Of a stretch of 64,000 bases of DNA, positions 9,081-25,250 are shown one piece after another. The notes under the pieces are model-generated. The model worked only from the letters and a program-made list of their open reading frames with translations, had not been told where the DNA came from and did no database searches. The number at the start of each line of letters is the position of its first letter. Within the stretch, counting starts at the first letter, position 1. A program made the translations under genes and the position numbers. The DNA is from Friedmanniella luteola (GTDB taxonomy: Bacteria; Actinomycetota; Actinomycetes; Propionibacteriales; Propionibacteriaceae): NCBI RefSeq assembly GCF_900105065.1, contig NZ_LT629749.1, positions 2,356,001 to 2,420,000 on the forward strand, written 5' to 3'.

Positions 9081-9204
9081 AGGCCAGGCGCCGAGAGTCA
9101 GCACTACCGAGCCCGACCGACGCGAGGGCGGCCGACAAGACCTGACCTCCACCGGGGCGGCCAGGAGCCCCCTCCGCGTCCGAGCGGAGCGAGGACGGAC
9201 ACGA

Positions 9205-11565
9205 CTACCGGGGGATCTGCCACCGCGGCGTGGAGGGCTTGGTCTTCCACGCGACGATCGACCACTGGCTCTTCCCGGCGGCGCGCATCAGCGGGATGTC
9301 GGGGCTGACGGCGACGGGGTGGCCGACGGTCTGCAGCATCGGCAGGTCGGAGTGGGAGTCGGCGTAGGCGAAGCTGCGGGTCAGGTCGACCCCGTGCAGC
9401 GAGGCGTAGTGCTTGAGCCACGCCGCCCGGGACTCCCCCACCAGCGGCGGCCGGGCCAGGAAGCCCGTGCAGCGGCCGTCGGCGTCGGTGGCCAGCTGGG
9501 CGGCCACGATGACGTCGAAGTACTCCCGCAGCGGCCGGGTGAGCGTCTCGACGGCGCCGGTGATGAGGATGGTGGTGTGCCCGGCGGCGCGGTGCTGCTC
9601 GATCCGCTCCAACGCCTCCGCGGAGACCCGGCTGAGGATCGCCGGGGCCATCGTCGTGTCGACCCGGTGCTCCAGCTCGGCCAGGTCGAGGCCGCGGTAG
9701 CGGCGGTAGACCGCCCGCAGGAAGTCGCCGCGGTCCCGCTGCTCGGCCAGCAGGTAGCCGGGCAGCCGGCGGGCGACCTGCCCGACCTCGGCCACCTGGC
9801 CCGCCGGGGACAGCTCGGGCAGGCGCGACCACAGGTACTGCTCGACCACGTTGGTGGACATGATGGTGCCGTCCAGGTCGAAGATCGCGACGGCCGAGGC
9901 GCCGGCCGTGTCCTTGCTGAGGTCCTTCATGGTGCTGGGCCGGGACCCGCGCTTGTTCCGCAGGGCGTCCATCCGGCGCACCGACGTGGTGATCGAGGGG
10001 CAGTGCACGTCCTCGATGTAGGTCTTCCAGTCGTAGACCGCGGTGTCGAAGGCGAACGCCTCGACGTCGTCGGGGTGCAGCGAGCGGGTCAGGGCCAGCG
10101 TCGCGTCGTCGACGAAGTGCAGCTCGGACTGGGCGTACTCGTTGTAGAGGCCGTGGTAGCGCCGCAGGAAGTCCAGCCGGCGGCGGAACTTGTCGAGGCT
10201 GCGGGCGGCCTGCCGGGTCCGGTCCGAGCGCGGCGCCCGGGCCAGCAGCCGCTCGGCGAGGGAGTGCGCGAGCTCCGAGCTCGCCAGCAGCCGGCCGACC
10301 GAGGAGGAGCCCGGGAAGTCCCACTCGGGCAGCGGTTCGCCCGGCTTGGCCGTGCGCTCCAGCGGGTGCTCGGTGAAGTAGTGCCGGATCAGCTCGTAGA
10401 TCCCCGCGATGGTCAACGGGTTCCGGGCGCCGGAGCTGACGTGGTAGAACTCCGGGCGGCCGACCGTCGGGGCGGTGGCGCAGACGGCGATGATCGCGTT
10501 GACGACGAGGTCGCACGGCACGATGTCGAGCACCGAGTCCGGCGAACCGGGGAACTCGGGCAGCTCGCCGCGGCCGTAGGCCAGGATCAACGGCTCGGCC
10601 ATCTTGAAGCCCTCGATCCACCCCGGGTAGGGGTGCGCCCAGGACGACTCGACGATGGCCGGCCGGACCACCGAGACGCGGATCTCCGCCCCCAGGTCGG
10701 CGACCACCCGCTCGCCGAGGGCCTTGGTGAAGGTGTAGACGTCGGTCCAGCCGAGCGAGCGGGCCCGCTCGGTGCCCGCGCGGACGAGCTCGGCCTGCAC
10801 CCACTCGGTGCGGCGGCGCTCGGTGTCGGCCGCCGTGGTCAGGTAGCCGGCGCGACGGTGCTGGCGCTCGGCCTCCTTGCGCAGCGTGGTCAGCCGGTCG
10901 GGCATCCGGGACTCCGCCTCGACGAGCTCCCGCATGGCGAGCCCGGCCGCGGTCTCGGCCGCGTAGTCGACGCTGTGCTCCTGCGGCCCCTCCGGGATGG
11001 CGCCGCGGCGGCGGCCCGCCGTGTAGGCGGTGGAGATGTGCACGTAGTGCGGGACGCGGACGGCACGGCCGTCCTCGTCGCGGCAGGCCTCGATCATCCG
11101 CTCCATCAGGGCCTTGGTGCCCACCACGTTGGTGGTGAAGGCCTGGTCGATGGGCGGGTCGAAGGAGACGTCGCCCGCGCAGTGCACGAGGACGTCGAGG
11201 TCGCGCGGCAGCGCCGGCACGTTCGGCAGGTCGCCCTCGATGACCTCGATGCGGGCGTCGACCAGCGCCTCGGCGCCGCCCGCCGCGTCGCGCACGTCGG
11301 CGAAGATCGCCTTCTTGACCAGGGAGACGACGCGGTCGCGGGCCGAGGCCGAGCCCTTGCGGCGGACCAGGACCGAGGGCCGGGTGTCCGGCAGCTCGGT
11401 GAGGATCTTCCACAGCAGCTGCTCGCCGATGAAGCCGGTGACGCCGGTCATGACGATCTTCTGCCCCGCCAGCAGGTCCCGCAGCCGGCCGTCGAGCCGG
11501 GGGGCGGGGTGGTCGGCGTCGCGCACCACGGTCGGTCGGCTGGACGTGTCGGCAGCAGCCGTCAT
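9205..11565 (-). CDS. Fatty acyl-CoA reductase-like SDR fused to HAD-IB phosphatase
   Basis: A 786-residue two-domain protein. The N-terminal part (about 30-480) is an extended SDR of the fatty-acyl-CoA reductase/male-sterility type: nucleotide-binding TGVTGFIG at 40-47 and catalytic YTFTK further on. The C-terminal part (about 558-775) is a HAD-IB hydrolase: FDLDGT at about 562-567, LITGA near 668 and YADSHSD near 735. Similar fusions are known in actinobacteria; a lipid role (reducing acyl-CoA, or handling a phosphorylated lipid) is inferred and the substrate is unknown. The start ATG at 11565 overlaps the hisA stop by 4 bases, so it shares the hisA transcript, in the place where hisF normally follows. 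Confidence 0.8.
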
Positions 11566-12326
11566 GGGGTCGGTTCCTCGGGGGTGGCGAGCGGCAGCGA
11601 GGCGGCCCGGAGAGCCTCCTCGATGGTGAAGTTGCCGACGTACAGGGCGGTCCCGATGATCGCGCCCTCGACGCCGACCGGGACGAGGTCGCGCAGCGCC
11701 ACCACGTCCTCGAGGCTGGAGATGCCGCCGCTCGCGACCACGGGGGCGTCGGTGCGGGCGCAGACGTGCCGCAGCAGCTCCAGGTTGGGCCCGCTCAGCA
11801 TGCCGTCGGAGGCCACGTCGGTGACCACGAACCGGGCGCAGCCGGCCCGGTCGAGCCGGTCCAGGGTCTCGTCGAGCTCCCCGCCCTCCGAGGTCCAGCC
11901 GCGGGCGGCGAGCCGGGTGCCGCGGACGTCGAGGCCGATGGCGATGCGGTCGCCGTGCGCGGCGATGATCTCCTCGCACCACGCGGGGCGCTCGAGGGCG
12001 GCGGTGCCGATGTTGACCCGGCGGCAGCCGGTGGCCAGGGCCCGCTCGAGGGTCTCGTCGTCGCGGATGCCGCCCGACAGCTCCACCTGCAGGTGGAGGT
12101 GGGAGACGATCTCGGCGATGATCTCGGCGTTGCTGCCCCGCCCGAACGCGGCGTCCAGGTCGACCAGGTGGATCCACTCCGCGCCAGCGTCCTGCCAGCG
12201 CTGGGCGGCGGCCCGCGGGTCCCCGAACACCTTCTCCGAACCGAGCCGGCCCTGCACCAGCTGCACCGCCTGGCCGCCGGAGACGTCGACGGCGGGCAGC
12301 AGGACCAAGGGGCTCTGCGAATTCAC
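11562..12326 (-). CDS. hisA: Phosphoribosyl isomerase HisA/PriA
   Basis: ProFAR isomerase of histidine synthesis, 254 residues in a (beta/alpha)8 barrel. Catalytic aspartates are D14 ([10 protein letters not shown]) and D174 (TDVASDGM), and W144 in the RGW loop matches the actinobacterial PriA type, which can also do the TrpF step. Dual activity is inferred from lineage and that Trp. The start is GTG at 12326, six bases after a TAGGGT -10 element, so hisA has its own leaderless promoter. hisB and hisH lie about 9-10 kb away, beyond the sialoglycan cassette; hisF is not in the window. Confidence 0.92.
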
Positions 12327-12332
12327 CCGACG

Positions 12333-12338
12333 ACCCTA
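12333..12338 (-). promoter_or_regulatory. Leaderless promoter of hisA (-10 TAGGGT)
   Basis: Minus-strand TAGGGT followed by 6 bases and the hisA GTG. It explains how hisA and the downstream reductase/HAD gene are expressed although separated from hisDCBH. No clear -35. Confidence 0.6.
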
Positions 12339-12387
12339 CCGGAGGAGCGACCACGCCCCGGCCACGTCCCGGCGGCCCCGCACCCGG

Positions 12388-13425
12388 TCAGCAGGCGACG
12401 GCAGCGAGCCCGAAGCGGCTGCGGGCCGAGGCGCTGACAGCCCCGAGGAAGCGCTCCGAGTTCGGCGTGGTGCCCGCGGTGTACCAGCGGTCGTCGATGT
12501 CGCAGACCAGCAGCTCGGCCGGGGTGTCGGCCAGCACCAGCGGCAGCGTGTGCACGACGGTGGACGGGAAGCTGATCACCCGCCGGGCCAGCACGCCGAG
12601 GCGGGCCGCGATCTCCAGGGGCAGGTCGGGCCGGACGACGGTGACGCCGAGGCCCTCGATCCGGGCCAGCTTGGCGTCGGACTCCTTGCGGTGGGCGAAG
12701 TAGCGGTCGACGGCGTACTGCTCGACGAGGCTGGCGACCCCGCCGAGGTAGGCGTCGGCGTCCACGACGCCGGTCTCGACCAGGGAGGTGCCGATGAGGT
12801 CGGAGCCCAGCTTCACCTCGGGGACCGGGAAGCGGGAGCGCACCCAGGCGAAGGTGTTGCGACCGACGTGGGCCCGGGGCAGCTCCACGTCGAGGCTGGT
12901 GAACAGCGCGAGGCGGCAGCCCGACTCGGGGCTGATGCGGCGGCGGACCGAGCCGGAGATCTGCTCGCGGGCGAAGTGGCTGATCTGCCGGCGGTGCCCG
13001 GGGGTGGCCACGCTGTGCCAGCGGGCGAGGTGCTCACCGGCGACCCACTGCCGGGCGAACTCGAGGGTGGCGGTGCCGTCGTCGACGATCACCACCTCGG
13101 GCGCGCGGCTGATGCTCATCACGACCTGCAGGACGCCGGAGAACGGGTCGCCGATCACGAGGCGCTCGACGCCGGAGAGCTCGCTGGCCAGCGAGCGGAC
13201 GGTGCGGGCCGTGGCCGCCCCGCCCAGCCGCGGCTCGTGCCAGAGGACCTCGAGGCCGTCCTCCCGGGCCAGCGCGGACATCGCCCGCAGCTGGCGGCGG
13301 GTGGCCTCGTTCGTGGGGGCCAGCACGATGACCGTGAGGTCGTCCCGGGGCTCGCCGGCCTGGTGGGCCCACTCGACCACGTTCAGCAGCTGGGCGGGGC
13401 TCTCCACCAGGGCCGACGAGCGCAC
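12388..13425 (-). CDS. Putative sialyltransferase/polysialyltransferase-like glycosyltransferase (GT52-like)
   Basis: A 345-residue protein that I assign only tentatively. It has an alternating strand/helix GT-B look, VIVDDGTATLEFA at 112-124, YFAHRKES at 242-249 (resembling the HP[RK]E region of GT52 and bacterial polysialyltransferases) and SFPSTVVHTLPLVL at 285-298 (resembling their Ser-rich acceptor loop). No signal peptide. The start is GTG at 13425, sharing bases with the end of neuB (stop 13430-13428 lies just before it), so the two genes form one unit. Proximity to a sialic acid synthase supports transfer of a sialic acid-like sugar. It could instead use another nucleotide sugar. Confidence 0.55.
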   Translation of the reverse strand: MRSSALVESPAQLLNVVEWAHQAGEPRDDLTVIVLAPTNEATRRQLRAMSALAREDGLEVLWHEPRLGGAATARTVRSLASELSGVERLVIGDPFSGVLQVVMSISRAPEVVIVDDGTATLEFARQWVAGEHLARWHSVATPGHRRQISHFAREQISGSVRRRISPESGCRLALFTSLDVELPRAHVGRNTFAWVRSRFPVPEVKLGSDLIGTSLVETGVVDADAYLGGVASLVEQYAVDRYFAHRKESDAKLARIEGLGVTVVRPDLPLEIAARLGVLARRVISFPSTVVHTLPLVLADTPAELLVCDIDDRWYTAGTTPNSERFLGAVSASARSRFGLAAVAC

Positions 13426-13427
13426 GC

Positions 13428-14363
13428 TCAGCTGCCCGTGCTGGCGAGCTGCGGCTCGGCCCCGGACTGCACGCGGCGCAGCTTCTTCATGGCGGCGAGC
13501 TCGCCGTCGTAGATCTTCTTGACCCCGTCGCCGAGGGACTCGGTGATGATCCGGACGTCGCGGACGAGGCGCTGCAGGCCGGGAGGCTCCACGGAGGCGG
13601 ACTGGTCCGAGCCCCACATGGCGCGGTCGAGGGTGATGTGCCGCTCGACGAACACGGCGCCGAGCGCGACGGCGGCCAGCGTCGTCTGCAGGCCCGTCTC
13701 GTGCCCGGAGTAGCCGATCGGCACGTTCGGGAACTCCGACTGCAGCGTGTGGATCATCCGCAGGTTCAGCTCAGCCGGCTTGGCCGGGTAGGTGCTCGTG
13801 GCGTGGCACATGACGATGTTCTCACTGCCCAGCACCTCCACCGCGTGGCGGATCTGCTTCGGCGTCGACATCCCGGTGGACAGGATGATCGTCCGGCCGG
13901 TGGCGCGGAGCCGGCGGAGCAGCTCGTCGTCGGTCAGCGAGGCGGAGGCGACCTTGTGCGCCGGCACGTCGAACTGCTCGAGGAAGTCCACCGCCTCGAC
14001 GTCCCACGGGGAGGCGAACCAAGCGATGCCGCGGTCGCGGGCGTGGGCGTCGATCTGGCGGTAGTCGTCCTCGCCGAACTCGACGCGGTGCCGGTAGTCG
14101 ATGTAGGTCATCCGGCCCCACGGGGTGTCCCGCTCGATGTCCCACTGGTCGCGGGGGGTGCAGATCTCGGGCGTGCGCTTCTGGAACTTGACGGCGTCGC
14201 AGCCGGCGGCGGCGGCCTGGTCGATGAGCGCGAAGGCGTTCGCGAGCTCACCGTTGTGGTTGATGCCGATCTCGCCGGTGATGTACACCGGGTGGCCCGG
14301 TCCGACGACGCGGTCGCCGAGGCGCCGCGTCGGTCCCTGGAGCAGTGCTGAGGAGGTGGTCAT
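13428..14363 (-). CDS. neuB: N-acetylneuraminate synthase-like protein (NeuB family) lacking the SAF domain
   Basis: Condenses an N-acetyl-mannosamine-type sugar with phosphoenolpyruvate to give a nonulosonic (sialic) acid. The 311 residues cover the TIM barrel: GEIGINHNGEL (30-40), DAVKFQKR (56-63), ASPWDVEAV, KVASASLTDDELL, ILSTGMST, MCHATSTYP, IGYSGHE and FVERHITLDR. The protein stops at the linker where other NeuB proteins continue about 40-60 residues into the antifreeze-like SAF domain, which closes the active site of the partner subunit. The start ATG is placed by a leaderless -10 element. Whether the product is Neu5Ac, legionaminate or pseudaminate cannot be told. Confidence 0.85.
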   Translation of the reverse strand: MTTSSALLQGPTRRLGDRVVGPGHPVYITGEIGINHNGELANAFALIDQAAAAGCDAVKFQKRTPEICTPRDQWDIERDTPWGRMTYIDYRHRVEFGEDDYRQIDAHARDRGIAWFASPWDVEAVDFLEQFDVPAHKVASASLTDDELLRRLRATGRTIILSTGMSTPKQIRHAVEVLGSENIVMCHATSTYPAKPAELNLRMIHTLQSEFPNVPIGYSGHETGLQTTLAAVALGAVFVERHITLDRAMWGSDQSASVEPPGLQRLVRDVRIITESLGDGVKKIYDGELAAMKKLRRVQSGAEPQLASTGS

Positions 14364-14369
14364 GGGCGC

Positions 14370-14375
14370 ACGCTA
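14370..14375 (-). promoter_or_regulatory. Leaderless promoter of neuB (-10 TAGCGT)
   Basis: Minus-strand TAGCGT followed by six bases and the neuB ATG at 14363. The same hexamer and spacing precede the FUSC gene at 44456. Confidence 0.6.
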
Positions 14376-14506
14376 GGGAGCGTTTCTGGCGGGACGGGCG
14401 ATGGCACCTGAACGGCAGGCGAACATCCGACGGAGTCCCGGAGACACCGGCCCCGACGGGGCTCGGGGGCGGTACCCGGCCGCCGGCACCGTGACCCGGC
14501 GGTCTG

Positions 14507-14535
14507 TTGGCGTGACACACGCCTGCCCGTAACCG
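14507..14535 (+). promoter_or_regulatory. Candidate promoter and palindrome upstream of the GT42-GT8 gene
   Basis: TTGGCG (14507-14512), a 17-base spacer and TAACCG (14530-14535) could form a plus-strand promoter. A perfect palindrome GGCGTG-ACA-CACGCC (14509-14523) overlaps the -35 and spacer and is a candidate repressor operator. The 232-base divergent region 14364-14595 holds nothing else I can name. Confidence 0.4.
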
Positions 14536-14595
14536 CCCATTCACCTGGGCTCGCCAGCATGCGTGCACTACGTCCGTCGACGAAAGCCGAGCTCC

Positions 14596-16566
14596 ATGCC
14601 GCCCATGCGAACCGCCTCCCTCACCGAGCAGCCGGGTGAGCGGGAGATCGCCTCGTTCGCCCCCCTCGTCCACCGGCCGCTCGTGATCGCCGGCAACGGA
14701 CCCTCCGCCGCCGTGCCCCCGCAGCACCGGCTGCCCGCCGACCCCGTCGTCTTCCGGATGAACTGGTTCTTCCTGGAGAGCCACTACCACTTCGGCAGCC
14801 ACGTCGACGCCTGGTTCTTCTCCGTGCCGAACCAGACGCTGGAGGAGACGCTCGCCCAGGAGATCCGGAGCGGCCGGTACACGGTCGACCGGCTGCTGTC
14901 CCCCATGCAGCTGCCGTCCGGACGGGACGGGGACGGCTGGGGGAACCAGCTCCTCGACGTCGACGTCGTGCAGCAGGACCACTGGGCCGTGGTGGCGCGG
15001 CACCCCCGGCTGGCCCGCCGGTTCATGAGCCGCCCCGGGCTGCCGACGACCGGGCTGCAGGCGCTCGGCTTCGCCCTGGCGGTGGGTTTCCGCGAGGTGT
15101 ACCTGTCCGGCATCGACCTGTACGAGTCGGCGGAGGCCCGCTACGGCTACACGGTCACCGACCAGGTCGCGGCCGCGCTCACCGCCAAGGACATCACCCC
15201 CGGCTACGAGAGCGCGCACTCGATCGACACCGACCTCGCCTTCCTGCAGGCCTGCCTGACGGAGTTCCCCGACGCCCGCGTGCACAACCTCAGCGAGTCG
15301 GTGAACCTGTCGGTCTACCTCGGCACCGCCCCGGAGCAGGTCGAGGGCCCCGACCTGGCGGCCGGCAGCACGGCGCACCTGGGCGAGCCCAAGGACCGCG
15401 TCGTGGCCACCCTGGCCGGCGCGCCCGGCGCCGACCCGGTCGTGGTCACCGCGCCCCGCGACCGCCGGCTGTGGCAGGAGGTCGACGGCCGCCGGTGCGC
15501 CTACGTCACCGTCGTCTCCGGCAACTACCACCACGGCGCCCGTGCGCTGGCCGGCTCGCTGCGCCGGGTGAGCGACGTCCCGCTGCTGGCCCTGGCCACC
15601 GCGGACGCCGACCGGGTCGCGCTGGCCGCCAGCGACATCCACGTCATCGACGTCCCGGAGATCCGCAACCCCAACACCAGCCAGCGGTTCCAGCAGCGCT
15701 TCCAGCACACCTACACCAAGCTGAACGTCTTCCGCCTCGACTTCCTGGACCGGCTGGTCTACCTGGACAGCGACACCGTGGTGCGGAAGAACATCGACGA
15801 GCTCTTCGCCGGTCACGGGTTCGCCGCCGCCCCCGACTCCGGCTTCGACCGGGCCAGCAGCCGGGAGTTCAACTCCGGCGTGCTCGCCCTCGAGCCCTCG
15901 CACGCGCAGTTCTGCCGGATGCTCGACGCGCTGGCCGCGACCCCCTCCCGCGACGGCGGGGACCAGGGCTTCCTCAACAGCTTCCTGGACACGTGGGAGG
16001 CACTGCCGGTGGAGTACAACACCACCAAGCGGGTGTTCGCCCACCACCCCGCGCTCTACACCGACGCCGACGTCAAGGTGCTGCACTACGTCGGCAACAA
16101 GCCCTGGGACCCGCTGCGCGACCCCGCGCACGACCGGTACGCCGAGCTGGACCGCGACTGGCTGGACTGCCTCGAGGCCTGGGAGCTGCGCGAGCTGGTC
16201 ACCGACCTGCGCGCCGTCGCCTCCGCCCAGGCGCGGGAGGACGCCGGGCTCCAGGTCTCGGGGGGCTCCTCGCTCTCGCCGTTCCGGCAGGCCCAGAAGC
16301 TGAACGCCAAACGGCGGTTCGCCCAGGCCGAGGAGGTGCTCCGGGACGCCTGGCGGACCAAGGAGGCCACCCCGGCCGAGCTCCGCGAGCTGGCCCGGGC
16401 GCTGCGGGCGCAGGGCCGCCACTCCGAGGCCGTCGCCACGCTGCGGACGGCCGCCCGGCTGGCCCCGGAGTCGATGGCCGTCACCCGGGAGCTGCAGGCC
16501 GCCCGGGCCCGGGCGGTCGTGCAGACGCTCCGCCGGCTCAACGCGAAGGTCGTGGGACGTGGCTGA
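14596..16566 (+). CDS. GT42 sialyltransferase fused to GT8 glycosyltransferase
   Basis: A 656-residue fusion. Residues ~28-245 match the GT42 (Cst-I/Cst-II) sialyltransferase fold: VIAGNGPS (30-37, CMP-sialic acid binding), VVFRMNWFF (51-59), YLSGIDLY (169-176), and AHSIDTDLAFL (207-217), whose H208 aligns with the catalytic His of Cst-II. Residues ~301-510 are a GT8 (glycogenin/LgtC-like) domain with the metal-binding DSD (391-393), FNSGVL and HYVGNKPW (497-504). The last ~100 residues look TPR-like. No signal or membrane segment, so it acts in the cytoplasm. I chose the ATG at 14596; an in-frame GTG at 14563 is possible and neither has a good ribosome site. It should add two different sugars, one probably a sialic acid. 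Confidence 0.83.
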   Translation: MPPMRTASLTEQPGEREIASFAPLVHRPLVIAGNGPSAAVPPQHRLPADPVVFRMNWFFLESHYHFGSHVDAWFFSVPNQTLEETLAQEIRSGRYTVDRLLSPMQLPSGRDGDGWGNQLLDVDVVQQDHWAVVARHPRLARRFMSRPGLPTTGLQALGFALAVGFREVYLSGIDLYESAEARYGYTVTDQVAAALTAKDITPGYESAHSIDTDLAFLQACLTEFPDARVHNLSESVNLSVYLGTAPEQVEGPDLAAGSTAHLGEPKDRVVATLAGAPGADPVVVTAPRDRRLWQEVDGRRCAYVTVVSGNYHHGARALAGSLRRVSDVPLLALATADADRVALAASDIHVIDVPEIRNPNTSQRFQQRFQHTYTKLNVFRLDFLDRLVYLDSDTVVRKNIDELFAGHGFAAAPDSGFDRASSREFNSGVLALEPSHAQFCRMLDALAATPSRDGGDQGFLNSFLDTWEALPVEYNTTKRVFAHHPALYTDADVKVLHYVGNKPWDPLRDPAHDRYAELDRDWLDCLEAWELRELVTDLRAVASAQAREDAGLQVSGGSSLSPFRQAQKLNAKRRFAQAEEVLRDAWRTKEATPAELRELARALRAQGRHSEAVATLRTAARLAPESMAVTRELQAARARAVVQTLRRLNAKVVGRG

Positions 16567-18082
16567 CATCACCGAGCAGGACCCGACGGCAGCGCGGGAC
16601 GGGTCGGGCGGCGCTCCCGCGCGCAAGCTGCGGCTCTTCCACTTCGACATCAAGACGCTGGGCAACTACGGCGACACCCTGCTGTTCGAGGCCGTCCGCC
16701 AGGTCTTCAACGGCTTCGGCGACGGGCGCTACTTCGAGGTGACCGACGCCCGCCCGCTGCGCGACCCGGTCGGCCCGGCGCTGGTCCGGCACATCAACGA
16801 GCACGCCGACGCCGTCGTCGTCGGCGGCGGCGGGCTGTTCCTCCGCGACACCAACGCGAACTCCCGCTCGGGCTGGCAGTGGAACATCTCGCTGAACCTG
16901 CTCCGCCAGATCGAGAAGCCGCTGATCATCTTCGGCGTCGGCAACAACCGGTTCATCGACCAGGAGGACTTCGCGCCCCCCTTCGTCGAGCACCTCAACC
17001 TCGTGATGGAGAAGTCGGTCTTCTTCGGGCTGCGCAACACCGGCTCGGTCGAGACGATCAGGCCCTACCTGGAGCCGTCGAGCCGGGACCGGGTGGAGTT
17101 CCAGCCCTGCCCGACGACCCTGTCCTCCTACCTGTTCCCCGACCTGTGGCGGCCCGAGCTGCCCGACGAGCGACGGCTGGCCCTGCAGATGATCGTCGGC
17201 AAGCGCCAGGAGCGGGCCGGCTTCTCCGCCGACGCCATCTACACCGACGTGCTGGAGGTGGCCCGGCGGCTCAAGGGCGACGGCTGGACCCTCGAGAGCG
17301 TCCCGCACGCGCGCGCCGACCTCGGCTTCGCCGAGCGGGCCGCCGCGGCGGGGCTGGTGGACTCGGAGGTGCGGCTGTTCAACGACCCCGACGGCCTCTA
17401 CAAGGGCGTCGAGCACTTCGCCGGCCTGCCGTTCATCCTGGGCACCCGGGGCCACGCCCAGATGGTGCCCTTCGGCATGGGCTCCATCCCGCTGTCGCTG
17501 CTCGTGCACCACAAGACGGGCTACTTCGCCCGCGACATCGGCCACCCCGAGCTGACCGTCGACCCCCGTCAGGACGGATTCGTCGACCGGCTGCACGCGG
17601 CCGTCAACGAGGCGGCCGAGCACCGGGTGGCCCTGCGGGCGGAGCTGGCCGAGGCCCGCGCCGGCTTCTTCGCCCAGACCCTGGACAACCTGGCCAGCAT
17701 CTACCAGCGGATCACCGGCACGACGGTGGTCCCCAGCCACACGCCCTACCCGCCCCTGGCCCGGGGGCTGGCCGCGCGCGCCTTCCTGCAGGGCGTCCAC
17801 CGCGACACCGCCGACGGCCGCGTCCGCAGCCTGACCGCCGACCTCGCCGCCGCCCGGGAGCAGGTGCCGTCCGGTCTCGACGGGCCGTCCTGGCTCCGTC
17901 GGCGCGCCCGGGAGGCCGTCGCCGCCGGCGACCTGGCGACGGCGCGCACCCTCTGGCGCGCGCTCGACGCGGTGGTCGACGACGGCACCGGCCGCGCCCC
18001 CCGGCCGCGGTGGGACTCGGGCGCCCTCCGGCTGGTCCCCGCGCCGCTGCTGGAGGCGGCCCGGGACCTGCGCCGCCGGTGA
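16559..18082 (+). CDS. Polysaccharide pyruvyl transferase family protein
   Basis: A 507-residue member of the family that transfers pyruvate ketals, or related groups, to glycans (PF04230-like). It has GNYGDTLLFEAVRQVF at 35-50 and VVVGGGGLF at 86-94, both typical of the GT-B-like fold, then IIFGVGNNRF, and FILGTRGHAQMVPFGMG near 303, matching the C-terminal substrate loop. Residues beyond ~390 are a helical extension of unknown role. The GTG start overlaps the preceding gene by 8 bases. The donor (phosphoenolpyruvate) and acceptor are inferred from the family; in this context it probably decorates the sialoglycan. Confidence 0.75.
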   Translation: MADITEQDPTAARDGSGGAPARKLRLFHFDIKTLGNYGDTLLFEAVRQVFNGFGDGRYFEVTDARPLRDPVGPALVRHINEHADAVVVGGGGLFLRDTNANSRSGWQWNISLNLLRQIEKPLIIFGVGNNRFIDQEDFAPPFVEHLNLVMEKSVFFGLRNTGSVETIRPYLEPSSRDRVEFQPCPTTLSSYLFPDLWRPELPDERRLALQMIVGKRQERAGFSADAIYTDVLEVARRLKGDGWTLESVPHARADLGFAERAAAAGLVDSEVRLFNDPDGLYKGVEHFAGLPFILGTRGHAQMVPFGMGSIPLSLLVHHKTGYFARDIGHPELTVDPRQDGFVDRLHAAVNEAAEHRVALRAELAEARAGFFAQTLDNLASIYQRITGTTVVPSHTPYPPLARGLAARAFLQGVHRDTADGRVRSLTADLAAAREQVPSGLDGPSWLRRRAREAVAAGDLATARTLWRALDAVVDDGTGRAPRPRWDSGALRLVPAPLLEAARDLRRR

Positions 18083-19110
18083 GCACCCGGACCCCGGCGG
18101 CCCGTCGGCTGCGGGCCGCCCGTCGGCTGCTGACGGGCCGGCTCGAGGACCGGCTGGCCGGCACCCTGGACCGCCGGGTGCGCCTCGAGGTCGCCCGGCG
18201 GCTGGCCGAGCTCGGTCCGCTCGGCGAACGGCTGGACGCGACCGTGCGGCGGGTCGACGGCCTGCTCGACGAGGCGGCCGTGCTGGCCCTGGTCCACCGC
18301 GAGGTCGCGCGGCAGGCCGAGGTGGACCGTCCGGACCCGGGCCAGCGCGACCGGGACTTCACCGCCGGCCTGGTGCTGGGCGCCGGCCGGCCTGACGACC
18401 GCACGCTGAGCGCGGCCCTCGTCGAGGACCTGCGGGCGGAGATCCGCGCCGTCAGCGGGGTCGAGGACGTCGAGGTGCCGTTGCGGCGCGCCTACCGGGC
18501 GCTGCTCGACCACGAGAGCCGTGGGCTCGGCCGGATCGCCGGGACCACCCCCAACATCCTCGGCAAGCTGGTCGTGCCCACCCTGCTGGCGCCGCCGCCT
18601 GGCCCGGTGCTGGAGATCGGCACCCTCTTCGGTCTGTTCTCCTCCGCCCTGGTGCGCCAGCTCCAGGCCGTCGGGGAGTTCCGCACCCTGACCGTCGTCG
18701 ACCCGTTCGCGGGCACCCAGGTGCAGGACGGCCGGCCCGGCCGGCGCGACCGGACCGGCACCCCGGTCAGCGAGGAGGTGGCCCGCCGGAACCTCACGAC
18801 GCTGGGCCTGCGCGCCGAGGAGGTCCGGCTGGTCCGCGGCTACTCGGGGGACGAGGAGGTCCGGCGGCAGGTGGCGGAGCAGAGCTACGCCGTCGTCGTG
18901 GTGGACGGCGACCACGCCGCCGACGGGGTCTACCGGGACCTGCGGTGGGTGCAGGACGTCGTCGCCCCCGGCGGGGTGGTCGTCCTGGACGACTGGGGCG
19001 ACCCCGGCTGGCCCGGCGTCGAGGCGGCCGGCCGGCGCTACCTGGCCGACGGCGGACGCCTCGAGCTGGTCGGGGTCGTCGCGACCTCGGCCTACCTCCG
19101 GCGGCCCTGA
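18079..19110 (+). CDS. Class I SAM-dependent methyltransferase
   Basis: A 343-residue protein. A charged helical N-terminus (1-150) is followed by a Rossmann methyltransferase domain: motif I VLEIGTLFG (177-185), LTVVDPF (acidic SAM-ribose site), VVVVDGDHAADGVYRDL near 278 and GGVVVLDDWG. It resembles the Methyltransf_24 class often found in glycan clusters. The start GTG overlaps the previous stop (GTGA), placing it third in a plus-strand operon with the GT42-GT8 and pyruvyltransferase genes. Its target is unknown; sugar O-methylation is a reasonable guess. Confidence 0.75.
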   Translation: MSTRTPAARRLRAARRLLTGRLEDRLAGTLDRRVRLEVARRLAELGPLGERLDATVRRVDGLLDEAAVLALVHREVARQAEVDRPDPGQRDRDFTAGLVLGAGRPDDRTLSAALVEDLRAEIRAVSGVEDVEVPLRRAYRALLDHESRGLGRIAGTTPNILGKLVVPTLLAPPPGPVLEIGTLFGLFSSALVRQLQAVGEFRTLTVVDPFAGTQVQDGRPGRRDRTGTPVSEEVARRNLTTLGLRAEEVRLVRGYSGDEEVRRQVAEQSYAVVVVDGDHAADGVYRDLRWVQDVVAPGGVVVLDDWGDPGWPGVEAAGRRYLADGGRLELVGVVATSAYLRRP

Positions 19111-19150
19111 GCCGGTACCCCGTCGGTGGGCCGCCGGCCGGACGTGCCGC

Positions 19151-20425
19151 TCAGGAGCGGACCGCCCCGCGGCGGCGGTGCTGGAGCTCGGCGACGGCCC
19201 GGGCCGCCACCGGGCGGCAGCGTCGCAGGCCGCGCGCGACCGGTCGGTACAGCACCGGGGGCAGCAGGTCGCGGGGCCGCAGCGTCCGCGGAGGCGTCGG
19301 GACCGCGGCCACGGCTTCCTGGGCGCGGTGGTAGACCGCGGCGCTGCGGAAGTAGTCCGAGGCCCGGACGGCGCGAGCGGGTCGCTCCCCGGAGTCCAGC
19401 AGGGCCTCCACCCGGTCGGCGACGACCGCGGTCGCGCCCTGCGCGCGCGGGAAGAAGTAGCCGGCGAGCCAGGCCGGGTCGGCCTCCCCCAGCCGGTCGT
19501 CGGTGATCTCGGCCCAGGTGCGGAGCAGGCCGCTGTCGAGGAAGACGTGGTTGCCGAAGCGCTCGTGCACGCCGAGGTCGAGGACCAGGGCCACCCGGCA
19601 GCCGTGGTCGAGCGCCTCCAGGCACGCCGTCGAGGACATGGTGACCAGGAGGTCGACGTCGGGCAGCAGCTCGGCGATCGGGGTGTGGTCGATGCGGAAG
19701 TTCGGCGGCAGGTCCTCCTCCGCCAGCAGCACCGCCGGGTGGTGCTGCATCCGGTGCAGGGTGTCCTCCTCGGGGCGGTGCCGCGGCTTGAGGACCACCT
19801 CGCGGTCGGGGTGCGCCCGCGCGTACGCGACGGCGCCGGCGTACAGGAAGCGGCGGTCCGCCTCCGTCGACGGCACGGTGGGCTGGTCGGCGAGCAGCAG
19901 CCGGCGGACCGGCGTCCGCCGCGGCGGGGCGGGCTCGGAGCTGAGGAACGGCAGGCCGGCCAGCAGCAGGTTGTCGGCGGGCATCTGCAGGGCGCGGGCC
20001 GTCCGCTCGAAGTGCTCCAGGTCGCGGCCGGAGTTCACGGCCACCACGTCGGAGCCGCAGCGGTCCAGGTAGCCGCCGGTGATCCGGTCGATGATGATGC
20101 CGACCCAACCGGTCACCACCACCGGACCGGGCCCGGCGACCGCGGCGGTCCGGGCGGCCAGGTCGAAGACGAACCCCTTGGTGAACGGCCCCGAGAGGCT
20201 GCACACGACCACGTCGGCGGCGACCGCGCGGTCGAGCAGCTCCGACCAGGTGACGTGCTCGACGGCGGTGAACCCCGCGTCGGCGATCTGCCCCGGGGAG
20301 AGCGCGCTGCGGACGTCGGGAACCACCACCTCGGAGGTGAACCCCCGGCGCTCGAGCTCGTCGCGGATGCGGGCGCACCACTTGAGCTGGGAGTCGAAGG
20401 CTGCCACGAAGAGCGCGCGTCGCAT
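19151..20425 (-). CDS. Putative GT-B glycosyltransferase of the DUF6716 kind
   Basis: A 424-residue protein beginning ALFVAAFDSQLKWCARIRDEL, with a split Rossmann-like pattern: VVVCSLSGPFTKGFVFDL, VVVTGWVGIII, then LLLADQPTVPSTEADRRFLY, VVLKPRHRPEEDT and LLVTMSSTACLEALDHGCRVALV in the second half. That second half resembles CDP-glycerol/capsule-type transferases. I recognise it only as a conserved actinobacterial glycosyltransferase-like family; donor and acceptor are unknown. It faces the methyltransferase gene (convergent, 40 bases apart) and is co-directional with the his genes. Its -10 element TAGCGT (20463-20458) includes the stop codon of the upstream gene. Confidence 0.6.
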   Translation of the reverse strand: MRRALFVAAFDSQLKWCARIRDELERRGFTSEVVVPDVRSALSPGQIADAGFTAVEHVTWSELLDRAVAADVVVCSLSGPFTKGFVFDLAARTAAVAGPGPVVVTGWVGIIIDRITGGYLDRCGSDVVAVNSGRDLEHFERTARALQMPADNLLLAGLPFLSSEPAPPRRTPVRRLLLADQPTVPSTEADRRFLYAGAVAYARAHPDREVVLKPRHRPEEDTLHRMQHHPAVLLAEEDLPPNFRIDHTPIAELLPDVDLLVTMSSTACLEALDHGCRVALVLDLGVHERFGNHVFLDSGLLRTWAEITDDRLGEADPAWLAGYFFPRAQGATAVVADRVEALLDSGERPARAVRASDYFRSAAVYHRAQEAVAAVPTPPRTLRPRDLLPPVLYRPVARGLRRCRPVAARAVAELQHRRRGAVRS

Positions 20426-20457
20426 CGGGGTCCGTTCTGGGGGGAGCAGGACCGCCG

Positions 20458-20463
20458 ACGCTA
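20458..20463 (-). promoter_or_regulatory. Candidate -10 element of the DUF6716-like gene
   Basis: Minus-strand TAGCGT whose TAG is also the stop codon of the HAD-DUF952 gene. It would give a leader of about 25 bases. The cassette gene could therefore be expressed separately from the his operon. Confidence 0.45.
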
Positions 20464-21450
20464 GGCACGCGTGGTGAACGGAGGGCCAACGCGCCGTGAC
20501 GTGTTGCCGTCGGCGCCGCCGTACGGGTGCACGGCGACGACCTCGTCCACCGGCAGCGGGCCGTAGAGGTGCGGGAACGGCCCGGCCCCGAGGTCCTCCA
20601 CGACGACCGGCACCGACAGGGTGCGGGCGTCAAGCTCCAGGACCACCAGCGCGTCGTCGGGCAGGTCGGCGTACTTCCGGGCGCGGGTGCCGGCCACCTG
20701 GTCGGCGAAGCCGGCGTGCACGAAGCCCTCCGACTCGTAGGTGCCGGTGCGTCCCGACCAGGGGTAGGCACCGTCCGCCAGGGCCCGCCGCCAGACCCGG
20801 TCCTCGGTCAGGTGCAGCACCGGCTCGTCCGGCACCGCCCGGGGGCCCAGCAGGCCGAGCTGCTCCAGGTCGGCCCGGAAGCGCTCGGCGCCGGTGAAGT
20901 GCAGGCCGGTGAGCCCCAGCGCCGTGGCGGCCTCGACGTTGGCCGGGGAGTCGTCGACGAACACGCAGCCGGCCGGGTCCAGGGCGAACCGTTCCAGCGC
21001 GAGCCGGAAGATCGCCGGGTCGGGCTTGGCCAGCCGCTCCTCCCCCGAGACGAGGACGCCGGTGAAGCGCCGGAGCAGGCCGAACCGCTGCCGGGCGACG
21101 GGGAAGGTCTCCGCCGACCAGTTGGTGAGCGCCGCGCAGGTGACGCCGGCCTGCTGCAGCTCGGCCAGCACCGCCCCGGTCCCGGGCACCAGGCCGGTCA
21201 GGGTGCGGTCGAAGTTCTGCCGGTAGGCGCGGACGGCCGCCGCGTCCTCGGGGAACCGGGTCAGCAGCTCGGCCTCGACGTCGGCGAACGGCCGGCCCGC
21301 GTCCGCCGCGCGGTTCCAGGTGCCGAAGTCGGTCCTGGTCAGGAAGTCGGCGACCTCCGCGGGCGGGAGCACCCCGGCGTAGGCGCCCGCGGGCTCCCAG
21401 CCGACGACGACCCCGCCGAGGTCGAACAGCACCGACGGGGCGGCCGTCAC
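20461..21450 (-). CDS. HAD-superfamily hydrolase fused to a DUF952 domain
   Basis: 329 residues. Residues 1-205 form a HAD-IA phosphatase: LFDLGGV with nucleophile D10, ALTNWS near 110, LAKPDPAIF near 140, and VFVDDSPANVEAA near 166. Residues about 210-325 match DUF952: VLHLTEDRVWRRAL, SEGFVHAGFADQVAGTRARKY, LVVLELDART and FPHLYGPLPVDEVVAVHPY. Both domains usually occur as separate proteins. The GTG start lies 10 bases after the hisH stop, so it is expressed with the his genes. A link to histidine synthesis, for example a histidinol-phosphate phosphatase substitute, is possible but unproven. Confidence 0.82.
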   Translation of the reverse strand: MTAAPSVLFDLGGVVVGWEPAGAYAGVLPPAEVADFLTRTDFGTWNRAADAGRPFADVEAELLTRFPEDAAAVRAYRQNFDRTLTGLVPGTGAVLAELQQAGVTCAALTNWSAETFPVARQRFGLLRRFTGVLVSGEERLAKPDPAIFRLALERFALDPAGCVFVDDSPANVEAATALGLTGLHFTGAERFRADLEQLGLLGPRAVPDEPVLHLTEDRVWRRALADGAYPWSGRTGTYESEGFVHAGFADQVAGTRARKYADLPDDALVVLELDARTLSVPVVVEDLGAGPFPHLYGPLPVDEVVAVHPYGGADGNTSRRVGPPFTTRA

Positions 21451-21460
21451 CGGCGGGCGC

Positions 21461-22108
21461 TCACAGCGTGGCGACCCAGTTGCGGAGGAGGGCGGTACCC
21501 GCCTCGCCCGACTTCTCGGGGTGGAACTGGGTGGACCACAGCGGGCCCTCCTCGACGGCGGCGACGAAGCGGTCGCCCTCGTGCTCGGCCCAGGTGACGG
21601 TGCGCCCCGGCGTCTCCGCCAGCATCCGCACCCCGTAGGAGTGCACGAAGTAGAACCGCTCGTCCTCGATGCCCGCGAAGAGCCCGCTCCCCGCGGGCGG
21701 CTCGACGGTGTTCCAGCCCATGTGCGGCAGCCGCTGCACGGCGAGCTGCTCGACGAGGCCCGGCCAGACGGCGCAGCCCGGGGCGCGGACGCCGTGCTCG
21801 ATGCCGGCGTCGAACAGCACCTGGTGGCCGACGCAGATGGCCAGCGTCGGGCGGCCCTCGGCCACCCGACGGGCGATCAGACCGGGGCCGCCGACGTCGG
21901 TCAGCCCGGCCATGCAGGCGGCGAAGGCTCCCACACCGGGGACCACGAGCCCGTCGGCGGCCAGCGCCTGCTCCGGGTCGGCGGTGACCACCACGTCGGC
22001 CCCCGCGTGCGCGACGGCGCGCTCCGCCGACCGCAGGTTGCCCGAGCCGTAGTCGAGGACGACGACCCGCTTCCGGCCGTCGGCACGCCCAGCGGTCGGG
22101 GTGCTCAC
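21461..22108 (-). CDS. hisH: Imidazole glycerol phosphate synthase glutaminase subunit HisH
   Basis: Class I glutamine amidotransferase that supplies ammonia to HisF, 215 residues. Nucleophile C92 lies in [11 protein letters not shown], the general-base His and Glu lie in FHPEKSG, and the [10 protein letters not shown] segment is at 57-66. GTG start at 22108 overlapping the hisB stop by 4 bases. Its partner hisF is not in the window. Confidence 0.95.
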
Positions 22109-22752
22109 AGCGTCCCCTTCGTGCTGGGGACCCCGGTCACCCGGTCGTCGGGGGCGATGGCGTCCCGCAGGGCGCGGGCCACGGCCTTGAACTGGGCCTC
22201 GACGATGTGGTGCGGGTCGCGGCCGGCGACCAGGGTCAGGTGCAGGCAGAGGTGGGCGTGGAAGGCCAGCGTCTCCATGACGTGCCGGGTCAGGGAGCCG
22301 GTGTAGGGGACGCTGTCGCGCTCGCCGGGCCCCGCCGGGGTGCCGCCCCCGATCCGGGCGAACGCCTGCCCCTCGGGCTCGCCGGTGTGCACGCAGTAGG
22401 GCCGGCCCGACACGTCGACGACGGCCTGGGCCAGTGCCTCGTCCAGCGGCACCAGGGCGTCGCCGAACCGGCGGATCCCGCGCTTGTCGCCCAGCGCCTC
22501 CCGCAGGGCCTGGCCGAGCACGATGGCGGTGTCCTCGACGGTGTGGTGCGCGTCGATGTGCAGGTCCCCGGTGCTCTCGACCTCGAGGTCGATGAGGGAG
22601 TGCCGGGCCAGTGCGGTGAGCATGTGGTCGTAGAAGCCCACGCCGGTGGAGATCTTGGACTCCCCGGTCCCGTCCAGGTCCAGGCTGAGCCGGACGAGGG
22701 ACTCCGACGTGATCCGCTCGATCGTGGCGGTGCGGGGGCGGCGCTCGGTCAT
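22105..22752 (-). CDS. hisB: Imidazoleglycerol-phosphate dehydratase
   Basis: 215-residue monofunctional dehydratase with no N-terminal HAD phosphatase domain. It shows the metal-binding repeats [13 protein letters not shown] and [16 protein letters not shown], then FHAHLCLHL and [12 protein letters not shown] near the C-terminus. The ATG at 22752 overlaps hisC by 4 bases. Because HisB here lacks the phosphatase, histidinol phosphatase must be a separate protein. Confidence 0.96.
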
Positions 22753-23909
22753 CGGGGGCCTTCCTGGGGGTCGGTCGCGGGGGCGGCGCGGGACGCGTCG
22801 GGCGTCGCCAGCACCTCGGCGAGGGCGGTGGTGAAGGCGGCCATCTCGGCCGGGGTGCCGGCGGAGACCCGCAGCCAGCCCGCGGGCCCGGTCTCGCGGA
22901 TGAGCACGCCCCGGTCGAGCAGCGCCTGCCAGACGGCGTGCCGGTCGGCGAACCGGCCGAAGAGCACGAAGTTCGCGTCGGACTCCGCCACCTCCAGCCC
23001 TTGGCGCACGAGCCAGCGGGCGACGTCGTCGCGGGCCACCCGCAGCTGGTCGACGGCGGCGAGCATCTCCGGCGCGTGGGCGAGCGCCACCCGGGCGACG
23101 GCCTGGGTGAGCGCCGAGAGGTGGTAGGGCAGCCGGACGACGCGGAGGGCGTCGACGAACGCGGGTGCGGCGGCCAGGTAGCCGAGGCGGCCGCCCGCGA
23201 AGGCGAAGGCCTTGGACATGGTGCGGCTGACGGCGAGCCGTGGGTACGCCGGCAGCAGCTCCAGCGCGCTGGGCGTACCGGTGCGCGCGAACTCGACGTA
23301 GGCCTCGTCGACGACGACGACGCCCGCCGTCGCGTCGCAGATCGCGCGCACCGTGGTCAGGTCGACGGCGGTGCCGGTCGGGTTGTTGGGGCTGGTGACG
23401 AGGACGACGTCGGGGGCGTGCTCGGCGATCGCGGCGACGGCCGCGTCGGCGTCGATGCGGAAGTCCGCCGTCCGCGGGACGGTCACCCAGGCGGTGTGGG
23501 TGTTCCGGGCGTACTCCGGGTACATCGAGTAGGTCGGCGCGAAGGACAGCACCGTGCGGCCCGGTCCGCCGAAGGCCTGCAGGACGTGCGTCATCACCTC
23601 GTTGCTGCCGTTCGCCGCCCAGAGCTGCTCGGCGGCCAGGCCGTGGCCGAGGTAGGCCGCCAGGTCCGCGCGCAGCGCCAGCGCGTCGCGGTCGGGGTAG
23701 CGGTTCACCGAGCCGGCGGCCCGGGCGACGGCCGTGGCGATCTCGGCGACCACGGACGGGCTCGGCGGGTACGGGTTCTCGTTGACGTTGAGGCGGACGG
23801 GGACGTCCAGCTGCGGCGCACCGTAGGGCTCCTCCCCCACCAGCTCCGGCCGCAGCGGCAGCTCGGCCAGCGTGGGCGTCGCCGTGCCGGTGACCGTCGG
23901 GGCGCTCAT
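22749..23909 (-). CDS. hisC: Histidinol-phosphate aminotransferase
   Basis: PLP-dependent class I/II aminotransferase, 386 residues. It has [12 protein letters not shown] (40-51), SPNNPTGT (173-180), DEAYVEF (201-207), the PLP lysine K233 in [17 protein letters not shown] and a C-terminal RVSAGT. The start ATG at 23909 overlaps the hisD stop by 4 bases. Confidence 0.95.
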
Positions 23910-25237
23910 CGGACGGTGCCCGCGCCGCGGGGGAACCGCCGGCTGACCGCTGCACCGTGAGCGGGCAGGTTCTCGGCGTCGGCGAACACCTCGACGTGCC
24001 GGGCCACCGCCGCCAGCGCGTCCTCGGTGTAGCTGACGACGTGCACCGCCTTGAGGAAGCTCTTGACGTTCAGCCCCGAGGAGTGGCAGGCGCAGCCGGC
24101 CGTGGGCAGCACGTGCGTGCTGCCGGCGGAGTAGTCGCCGAGCGACACCGGCGACCACGGCCCCACGAAGATCGCGCCCGCGTTGCGCACCCGGGCGGCG
24201 ACCGCCGCCGCGTCGCGGGTCTGGATCTCCAGGTGCTCGGCGGCGTAGGCGTCGACGACCTCCAGGCCCTGCTCGACGTCGTCCACCAGGATGACGGCCG
24301 ACTGCTGGCCGCCGAGGGCGGTGCGGACCCGGTCGGCGTGCTTCGTGACGTCCACCTGCTCCTGGAGCTCGCGCTCGACCGCCGCGGCGAGGTCCGGGGC
24401 GTCGGTGACCAGGACCGCGGCGGCCATCGGGTCGTGCTCGGCCTGGCTGACGAGGTCGGCGGCCACGTGCACCGGGTCGGCGGAGGAGTCGGCCAGCACG
24501 GCGATCTCGGTGGTGCCGGCCTCGGAGTCGATGCCCACCCGGCCCTTGAGCAGTCGCTTGGCCGCGACGACGTAGATGTTGCCCGGCCCGGTCACCAGGT
24601 CGACGCGCGGGCACAGCCCGGGGACCCCGTAGCCGAACATGGCGACGGCCTGCGCCCCGCCGACGGCGTAGACCTCCTCGACGCCCAGCAGGTGGCACAG
24701 CGCCAGGATGCTGGGGTGCGGCAGCCCGCCGAACTCGCGCTGGGGCGGGGACGCGACGGCGATCGACTGCACGCCCGCGACCTGGGCCGGCACCACGTTC
24801 ATGATCACGCTGGACGCCAGCGGGGCCAGCCCACCCGGGACGTAGAGCCCGACGCGGCGGACCGGGATCATCCGCTGGGTGACCTGCGCGCCCGGTGCGA
24901 CCTGCACGTCGACGGCGCGTTCGCCCAGCTCGGCCTCGCTCACCAGCCGGCGCCGCCGGGTGGACTCCTCGAAGGCCGCGCGGACGTCGGGGTCGAGTCC
25001 GTCGAGGGCGGCGGCGAGCGCCGCCGCCGGCACCCGGAACGACGGCGGGACGACGTGGTCGAAGCGCTCGGAGTACTCGGCCAGGGCGATGGCGCCCCGC
25101 GTGGCCACGTCGTCGCAGATCGGCCGCACCACCTCCACGGCCGCCGCGACGTCGAAGACGGCGCGCGGCACCACCGTGGCGTAGTCCAGCCGTGTCCCGG
25201 CCGCCAGGCGGCCCCGCAGGTCGATCGTCCTCAGCAC
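23906..25237 (-). CDS. hisD: Histidinol dehydrogenase
   Basis: NAD- and zinc-dependent oxidation of histidinol to histidine, 443 residues from the start chosen. Motifs: [41 protein letters not shown] with the catalytic Glu-His pair, and the C-terminal [20 protein letters not shown]. An ATG at 25246 would add three residues. The GTG at 25237 is preferred because a TAGGAT -10 element ends seven bases before it, and the resulting VLRTIDLRG is the usual HisD N-terminus. First gene of hisDCBH. Confidence 0.95.
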
Positions 25238-25244
25238 GCCCGCC

Positions 25245-25250
25245 ATCCTA
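25245..25250 (-). promoter_or_regulatory. Leaderless promoter of the hisDCBH operon (-10 TAGGAT)
   Basis: Minus-strand TAGGAT overlaps the upstream ATG candidate and ends seven bases before the GTG at 25237. Transcripts starting here could not use the ATG, which fixes the start codon. Confidence 0.55.

Follow-up and report, generated by a model that had tools for sequence, protein, structure and literature searches.

The capsule polymerases SiaD-W/Y of Neisseria meningitidis W and Y have a hexosyltransferase of family GT4. According to the available parts of the papers describing them, this activity shares one chain with a sialyltransferase and the product is a hexose-nonulosonate copolymer (PMC8600345, PMC5811610); the sialyltransferase is placed in GT97 in the available text of PMC5811610. 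The protein described here is a fusion of the same kind, but it combines GT42 with GT8, comes from a monoderm organism, and likely handles Kdn as its nonulosonate. What is known of Kdn teichulosonic acids is mainly their chemical structures in actinobacterial walls, and the enzymes that polymerize them are not assigned in the accessible portions of the sources (PMC6801904 and others). As far as the available description extends, the Kdn teichulosonic acid pathway of Streptomyces coelicolor (SCO4873-SCO4882) likewise concerns an actinobacterial Kdn-hexose wall polymer. Sinorhizobium K-antigens, to which the rkp-3 loci belong, follow a Hex-Kdx pattern in the accessible part of PMC1403797, and this pattern is common in the genus, with exceptions such as HH103, in the corresponding part of PMC4881576. 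In the openly licensed literature, we recognized no description of a GT42-GT8 fusion or of a teichulosonic-acid polymerase.

The fusion lies in a 64,000-nucleotide stretch of the Friedmanniella luteola genome, analyzed as a whole and referred to below as the window; its features are collected in Table 1. Of 77 pattern matches in a scan of genome contigs, 12 proved to be relatives, each a full-length fusion with 53 to 56% identity, and the 12 named loci come from the genera Promicromonospora, Isoptericola, Cellulosimicrobium, Krasilnikoviella, and Myceligenerans of the Promicromonosporaceae.

Table 1. Features of the fusion gene and its surroundings (window positions)
Feature	Coordinates	Strand	Evidence or remark
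GT42-GT8 fusion, 656 aa	14596..16566	+	ORF list, Pfam, phmmer, alignment
GT42 (CST-I) domain, residues 30-246; N34, N56, T152, Y176, Y183, H208	14683..15333	+	Pfam, PDB phmmer, Foldseek, conservation
Glycogenin-like GT8 domain, residues 302-511; DSD 391-393, DGGDQG 453-458, H497, G500, P503, W504	15499..16128	+	Pfam, phmmer, Foldseek, conservation
Weak TPR-like tail, residues about 567-633	16294..16494	+	Sub-cutoff Pfam/NCBIfam matches, alignment
Polysaccharide pyruvyltransferase	16559..18082	+	PF04230, E 2e-14; start overlaps fusion stop by 8 bases
Methyltransferase	18079..19110	+	Methyltransf_24, E 4.1e-16; start overlaps pyruvyltransferase stop
NeuB-family nonulosonate synthase	13428..14363	-	PF03102, E 4.9e-79; only one in genome
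Conserved protein O2	12388..13425	-	No Pfam or PDB match; retained in congeners without the fusion
DUF6716 putative glycosyltransferase	19151..20425	-	Profile match, E 1.6e-77
Exchanged cassette	14426..19201		In G413 (L053 7722-11199): methyltransferase, GT2, and alpha-2,8-polysialyltransferase

Domain architecture and active-site residues

The N termini of the homologues align with the ATG at 14596 and not with the upstream GTG at 14563, and the protein is the sole PF06002 match in its own 4.72-Mb genome. The original prediction, a GT42 sialyltransferase and a GT8 domain in one chain, was borne out. PF06002 (CST-I) matched residues 30-246 (E 3e-12, 47 bits against a cutoff of 25) and Glyco_transf_8 matched residues 358-505 (E 9.1e-12, 45.5 bits against 24.3), both above the curated cutoffs, and phmmer and Foldseek agreed. 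On the sialyltransferase half, Pfam recognized CST-I/GT42 and no other glycosyltransferase family; the fusion appears to resemble SiaD-W/Y in its way of working, and we do not place it in GT97. Among PDB sequences, phmmer matched residues 26-215 to the Pasteurella multocida sialyltransferase 9c08 (E 3e-13), with Cst-II (E about 2e-11) and Cst-I as further relatives of the GT42 half, and residues 302-511 to glycogenin-1 (E 1.8e-21), glycogenin and the Skp1 alpha-galactosyltransferase being the best PDB relatives of that region. The second half had been likened to LgtC; it is indeed a GT8 domain, but glycogenin was the best match, and none of the 30 PDB chains with E<=1 carried the name LgtC. 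Similarly, weak matches to the proposed TPR-like tail were seen, but all Pfam matches (about residues 571-633) were under the cutoff, the best reaching 20.4 bits against 23.5, and the tail is missing from the Sinorhizobium/Ensifer relatives in the alignment.

AlphaFold2 gave a poor model of the full-length fusion from 13 sequences (pLDDT 57.3, pTM 0.40) and a barely better one of the GT42 domain alone (pLDDT 61.2, pTM 0.61). All 16 Foldseek matches of the low-confidence domain model at E<=0.001 were GT42 enzymes, with TM scores of 0.43 to 0.50. The 50 matches listed for the low-confidence full-length model comprised Cst-I/II and the sialyltransferase from Pasteurella on one side and glycogenins with a single Skp1 galactosyltransferase on the other, and the TMt values against Cst-I/Cst-II were 0.58 to 0.66. 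Superposition on Cst-II had been chosen beforehand as a point on which the GT42 assignment could fail, and it did not fail there: Cst-II was the best match of the low-confidence full-length model, with a target-normalized TM of 0.63.

All five motifs that had been picked out (VIAGNGPS at 30-37, YLSGIDLY at 169-176, H208, DSD at 391-393, and HYVGNKPW at 497-504) are at the predicted residues. Across 16 aligned fusions from two phyla, N34, N56, G172, D174, Y176, Y183, and H208 of the GT42 half and D391, D393, D456, Q457, H497, G500, P503, and W504 of the GT8 half were invariant, and K502 was kept in 14. The columns matching Cst-II N9, N31, Y156, Y162, and H188 were constant in all 16. In Cst-II, His188 is presumably the catalytic residue and tyrosines 156 and 162 presumably serve the phosphate; the counterparts would be H208, Y176, and Y183, the pairing of H208 with H188 being set by alignment. 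Residues 30-246 thus belong to the same sequence family as Cst-I/Cst-II and 9c08, match their fold in the low-confidence models, and have their catalytic residues, but those enzymes are single-domain proteins in the matched PDB entries, whereas the fusion adds GT8 and differs at three positions. Cst-II Q32 is replaced by W in every fusion, N51 by A in 13 and S in 3, and S132 by T in 13 and Q in 3.

These replacements would fit a protein in which one half alone is used catalytically and the other is an acceptor-binding relic, as would the frequent use of separate enzymes to build wall polymers with sulfo and pyruvyl decorations. Such a division is improbable, because the key residues of both halves are constant in 16 of 16 sequences from two phyla. 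The proximity of the GT8 half to glycogenin likewise invites the idea of protein glycosylation or of a glycogenin-like, self-glucosylating primer. The fusion differs from glycogenin, however, in its junction with a sialyltransferase and in lacking the conserved acceptor tyrosine, the corresponding column (about F481) varying among relatives, with alanine in L010. The gene context is throughout that of polymer synthesis, and a primer function is accordingly a most improbable one.

The nonulosonate locus and its exchangeable cassette

The nonulosonate genes are embedded in the histidine operon (window 11562-25246), with hisH (21461-22108), hisB, hisC, and hisD on one side and hisA (11562-12326) on the other; the same insertion place is used in the congeners G413 and G436. 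Adjoining hisA, at 9205-11565, is a gene for a protein resembling Male-sterility/fatty acyl-CoA reductases (NAD_binding_4) with a HAD domain, and a HAD hydrolase with a DUF952 domain (20461-21450) still flanks the locus in G413, G436, and G515. The genome's single CTP_transf_3 protein, a NeuA fused to a HAD phosphatase, is encoded about 141 kb from the locus. The window NeuB has 311 amino acids, and its PDB matches to the 349-amino-acid meningococcal enzyme end near residue 271-273 of the latter; a C-terminal part, presumably of SAF type, seems to be missing.

Comparison with congeners separates two kinds of genes. G413 DNA is 90% identical to the window over 9156-14425 and 79 to 87% identical from 19202 on, with different genes between. 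The polysialyltransferase of its cassette matches PF07388 (E 3e-20), and its cassette methyltransferase is 32% identical to that of the window. G413 gave no PF06002 match and retains NeuB (97%), O2 (92%), and DUF6716 (73%); G436 retains all three and has neither cassette, and G515 retains NeuB and O2. On this comparison, the constant part is nonulosonate synthesis and the exchanged part comprises the polymerizing and decorating genes. Because the cassette is swapped for one with a polysialyltransferase, the fusion would fill the slot of a nonulosonate polymerase, and the swap is the strongest argument that it does that enzyme's work. Together with the domain matches, the Foldseek results on low-confidence models, and the adjoining NeuB, it supports the originally predicted role in building a sialic-acid-type (nonulosonate) glycan.

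Within the fetched 10-kb flanks of the 12 named loci, DUF6716 and O2 were each found in 8, NeuA-HAD in 7, an ABC permease group (O9) in 7, O4 in 6, and the O13 sulfotransferase group in 5. NeuB was within these flanks in 8 of the 12, which counts against a copolymerase. Relatives of the pyruvyltransferase (57 to 62%) occur in nine loci, weaker ones in two, and none in L008; orthogroup O0, in which the fusion and pyruvyltransferases were merged, was left out of the counts. The O13 member of L007, the one tested, matches Sulfotransfer_1 (E 3.9e-23). O4 gave no Pfam match at 0.01, and its PDB search returned only one capsid chain (E 0.85), which is chance; we take it to be a putative sulfotransferase from a P-loop-like motif.

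The S. meliloti pSymB fusion adjoins genes for NeuA, NeuB, DUF6716, a Capsule_synth protein, and an ABC permease, in line with Sinorhizobium rkp-3 K-antigen loci and their Hex-Kdx polymers as given in the accessible part of PMC1403797. It differs in having no TPR tail and is 38% identical to the fusion of the window. Gene context was read in two of the three fusion-bearing plasmid records, and, at 1e-4, nothing in the 41-kb stretch of the Ensifer adhaerens plasmid matched NeuB, NeuA, or pyruvyltransferase, which counts against a copolymerase. So does a tblastn comparison at 1e-4, in which the window, L016, and L017 yielded neither a sulfotransferase-like gene of the Promicromonospora citrea type nor an exporter of the Wzm/Wzt type; the sole permease match in the own genome (31%) lies far off at 4.66 Mb. 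Beside NeuA in L016 (12988-14111) is a second DUF6716-like stretch, in two pieces with 43 to 44% identity to the P. citrea protein, to which the DUF6716 protein of the window is less close (31%).

O2 and DUF6716, retained where the fusion is missing, might build the chain or its linker themselves, which likewise counts against a copolymerase. The retained genes also suggest another division of labor, in which O2 and/or DUF6716 would make a backbone such as poly-Kdn and the fusion would add a Kdn-hexose branch or end cap. Each of the three congener loci read has O2 and NeuB but not the fusion, and two of them (G413 and G436) have DUF6716 as well; O2 and DUF6716 frequently accompany the fusion in the named loci, as counted above. 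Against a side-chain or cap enzyme, the alternative cassette of G413 encodes an enzyme of the polysialyltransferase family, that is, of a polymerase type, and the structure reported for P. citrea is an in-chain Kdn heteropolymer in the available part of PMC6801904. We regard this arrangement as unlikely, though still worth weighing beside a polymerizing fusion.

Kdn as the probable sugar and the predicted polymer

NeuB was found once in each of 15 carriers (14 genomes and one plasmid record, the Ensifer records lying outside this set), compared with a base rate of 73 of 197 genomes in the own family. NeuC (TIGR03568) was over its cutoff in none of 13 carriers, a set that leaves aside G205 and S. 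meliloti; six of them, including the own genome and P. citrea, had no match at all, and the other seven had NeuC-like matches of 54.6 to 85.1 bits against a cutoff of 235.9, which are probably WecB-type epimerases. The gene combination of a Kdn teichulosonic acid, NeuB and NeuA without NeuC, is the one found. If NeuC is lacking, the simplest product would be Kdn made from mannose-6-phosphate, and the presence of NeuB in the absence of NeuC favors Kdn over Neu5Ac, so that the sugar is more likely Kdn. The window NeuB scored under the NCBIfam cutoffs for both Neu5Ac synthase (239.4 against 399.65) and pseudaminic synthase (205.2 against 340.25). NeuA is fused to a HAD phosphatase in the own genome, P. 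citrea, and S. meliloti, and the HAD half matches KdsC-type phosphatases and also 3e81/4hgo, which we take to be a Kdn-9-phosphate phosphatase. Since 3ewi, from an N-acylneuraminate enzyme, was also matched (E 3.2e-13), the fused NeuA is weak evidence for Kdn and no proof of it.

The GT42 family is best characterized for Neu5Ac transfer in Campylobacter and Haemophilus, which would favor a Neu5Ac-bearing glycan that imitates an animal host, like the lipooligosaccharide of those genera. Several observations make such mimicry very improbable: the NeuC result, donor-pocket positions that appear to differ from those of Cst-II, carriers that are by name environmental or plant-associated genera, and the Kdn polymer reported for the carrier species P. 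citrea in the available part of PMC6801904. The emphasis on host mimicry with which the protein was first presented found no support, as Kdn is likelier and Kdn or Hex-Kdx polymers are reported in these free-living groups; mimicry is not needed to explain the fusion.

We favor, with a probability of about 60%, a bifunctional nonulosonate-hexose (Kdn/hexose) transferase that polymerizes a teichulosonic-acid-like surface polymer. The GT42 half, inverting and metal independent by family, would transfer the nonulosonate, most likely Kdn, from a CMP donor onto hexose, and the GT8 half, retaining and with a DxD motif, would extend the chain, in alpha linkage, by a UDP-activated hexose, with glucose or galactose the most likely sugar. 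The two halves would alternate at the growing end to give a hexose-Kdn chain, which the adjoining pyruvyltransferase and methyltransferase, and in relatives sulfotransferases as well, may decorate. CMP-Kdn would be supplied by the NeuB of the locus and the distant NeuA-HAD protein, and the product would be a negatively charged, teichulosonic-acid-like wall or capsule polymer. The activity of both halves, their alternation, Kdn and the identity of the hexose, the acceptor, the export route, and the wall location are all inferred parts of this scheme.

Retaining GT8 enzymes yield alpha-Glc, and inverting GT42 enzymes acting on CMP-beta-Kdn yield alpha-Kdn. One carrier, P. citrea ATCC 15908 (L004), is presumably the same type strain as 665T. 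Its locus encodes the fusion, NeuB, NeuA-HAD, three PS_pyruv_trans proteins (one just under the cutoff), and two O4 proteins, putative sulfotransferases by motif, and additionally GT2 and DUF6716. The wall polymer of 665T is given in the available part of PMC6801904 as ->6)-aGlc-(1->6)-aGlc3SO3-(1->4)-a-7,9Pyr-Kdn-(2->. The anomers of this polymer fit the GT8 and GT42 mechanisms. Counting against a copolymerase, the repeat requires three transfers, whereas the fusion has two sites. The fusion is nevertheless a concrete candidate polymerase that matches a chemical structure in one carrier species, so that the proposal can be tested with one enzyme and two nucleotide sugars. If true, it would represent a second, unrelated route to a hexosyltransferase and a sialyltransferase in one capsule polymerase, and it might serve to synthesize heteropolymers containing Kdn or sialyl units.

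Distribution and spread of the fusion

The fusion is rare among the relatives of its host. The whole protein is present in 1 of 197 genomes of the own family, six others matching GT8 only, and PF06002 in 1 of 391 genomes of the order. In the phylum, PF06002 was found in 3 of 396 genomes, two above the cutoff and the third, G093, below it at 18.8 bits; a GT42 enzyme therefore cannot be the general solution for Kdn teichulosonic acids. G205, which by its kinship label shares the phylum of the own genome but neither its order nor its family, carries the fusion at 57% identity, and PF06002 occurs in 1 of 21 genomes of the family of G205. Of 14 plasmid records matched, three (one from S. meliloti, two from E. 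adhaerens) cover 78 to 79% of the query at 36 to 38% identity.

YebC identity to the own copy falls from 98% in G413 through 66 to 68% in eight Promicromonosporaceae genomes to 51% in G205, whereas fusion identity is flat at 53 to 57% across Promicromonosporaceae and G205. This flatness, the congeners without the fusion, and the Sinorhizobium copies lead us to infer that the fusion has spread horizontally. In the fusion tree, the placement of the window's copy is not firm (84/65 support). A phage or prophage origin was considered and rejected, with no match in 50,697 phage records; among viral contigs, there was no relative of the GT42 domain, and four loci matched GT8 only.

More broadly, and tentatively enough that we would sooner bet against it than for it, GT42-GT8 fusions may constitute a family, so far undescribed, of single-chain polymerases for nonulosonate-hexose copolymers that monoderm actinobacteria and rhizobia have in common. 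The fusions would sit on exchangeable cassettes, which take the place of polysialyltransferase cassettes at a fixed locus. A Gram-positive wall polymer would then change serotype in the manner of capsules and, if this is true, would exemplify serotype-like switching outside of capsules.

Two further GT8 arrangements were seen. On pSymB of S. meliloti ml28 (L041 2441-7661), three integrase genes separate the pieces of a second GT42-GT8 relative. The congeners (L022, L024, and L025) have an unrelated, stand-alone GT8 beside an apparent FAD oxidoreductase.
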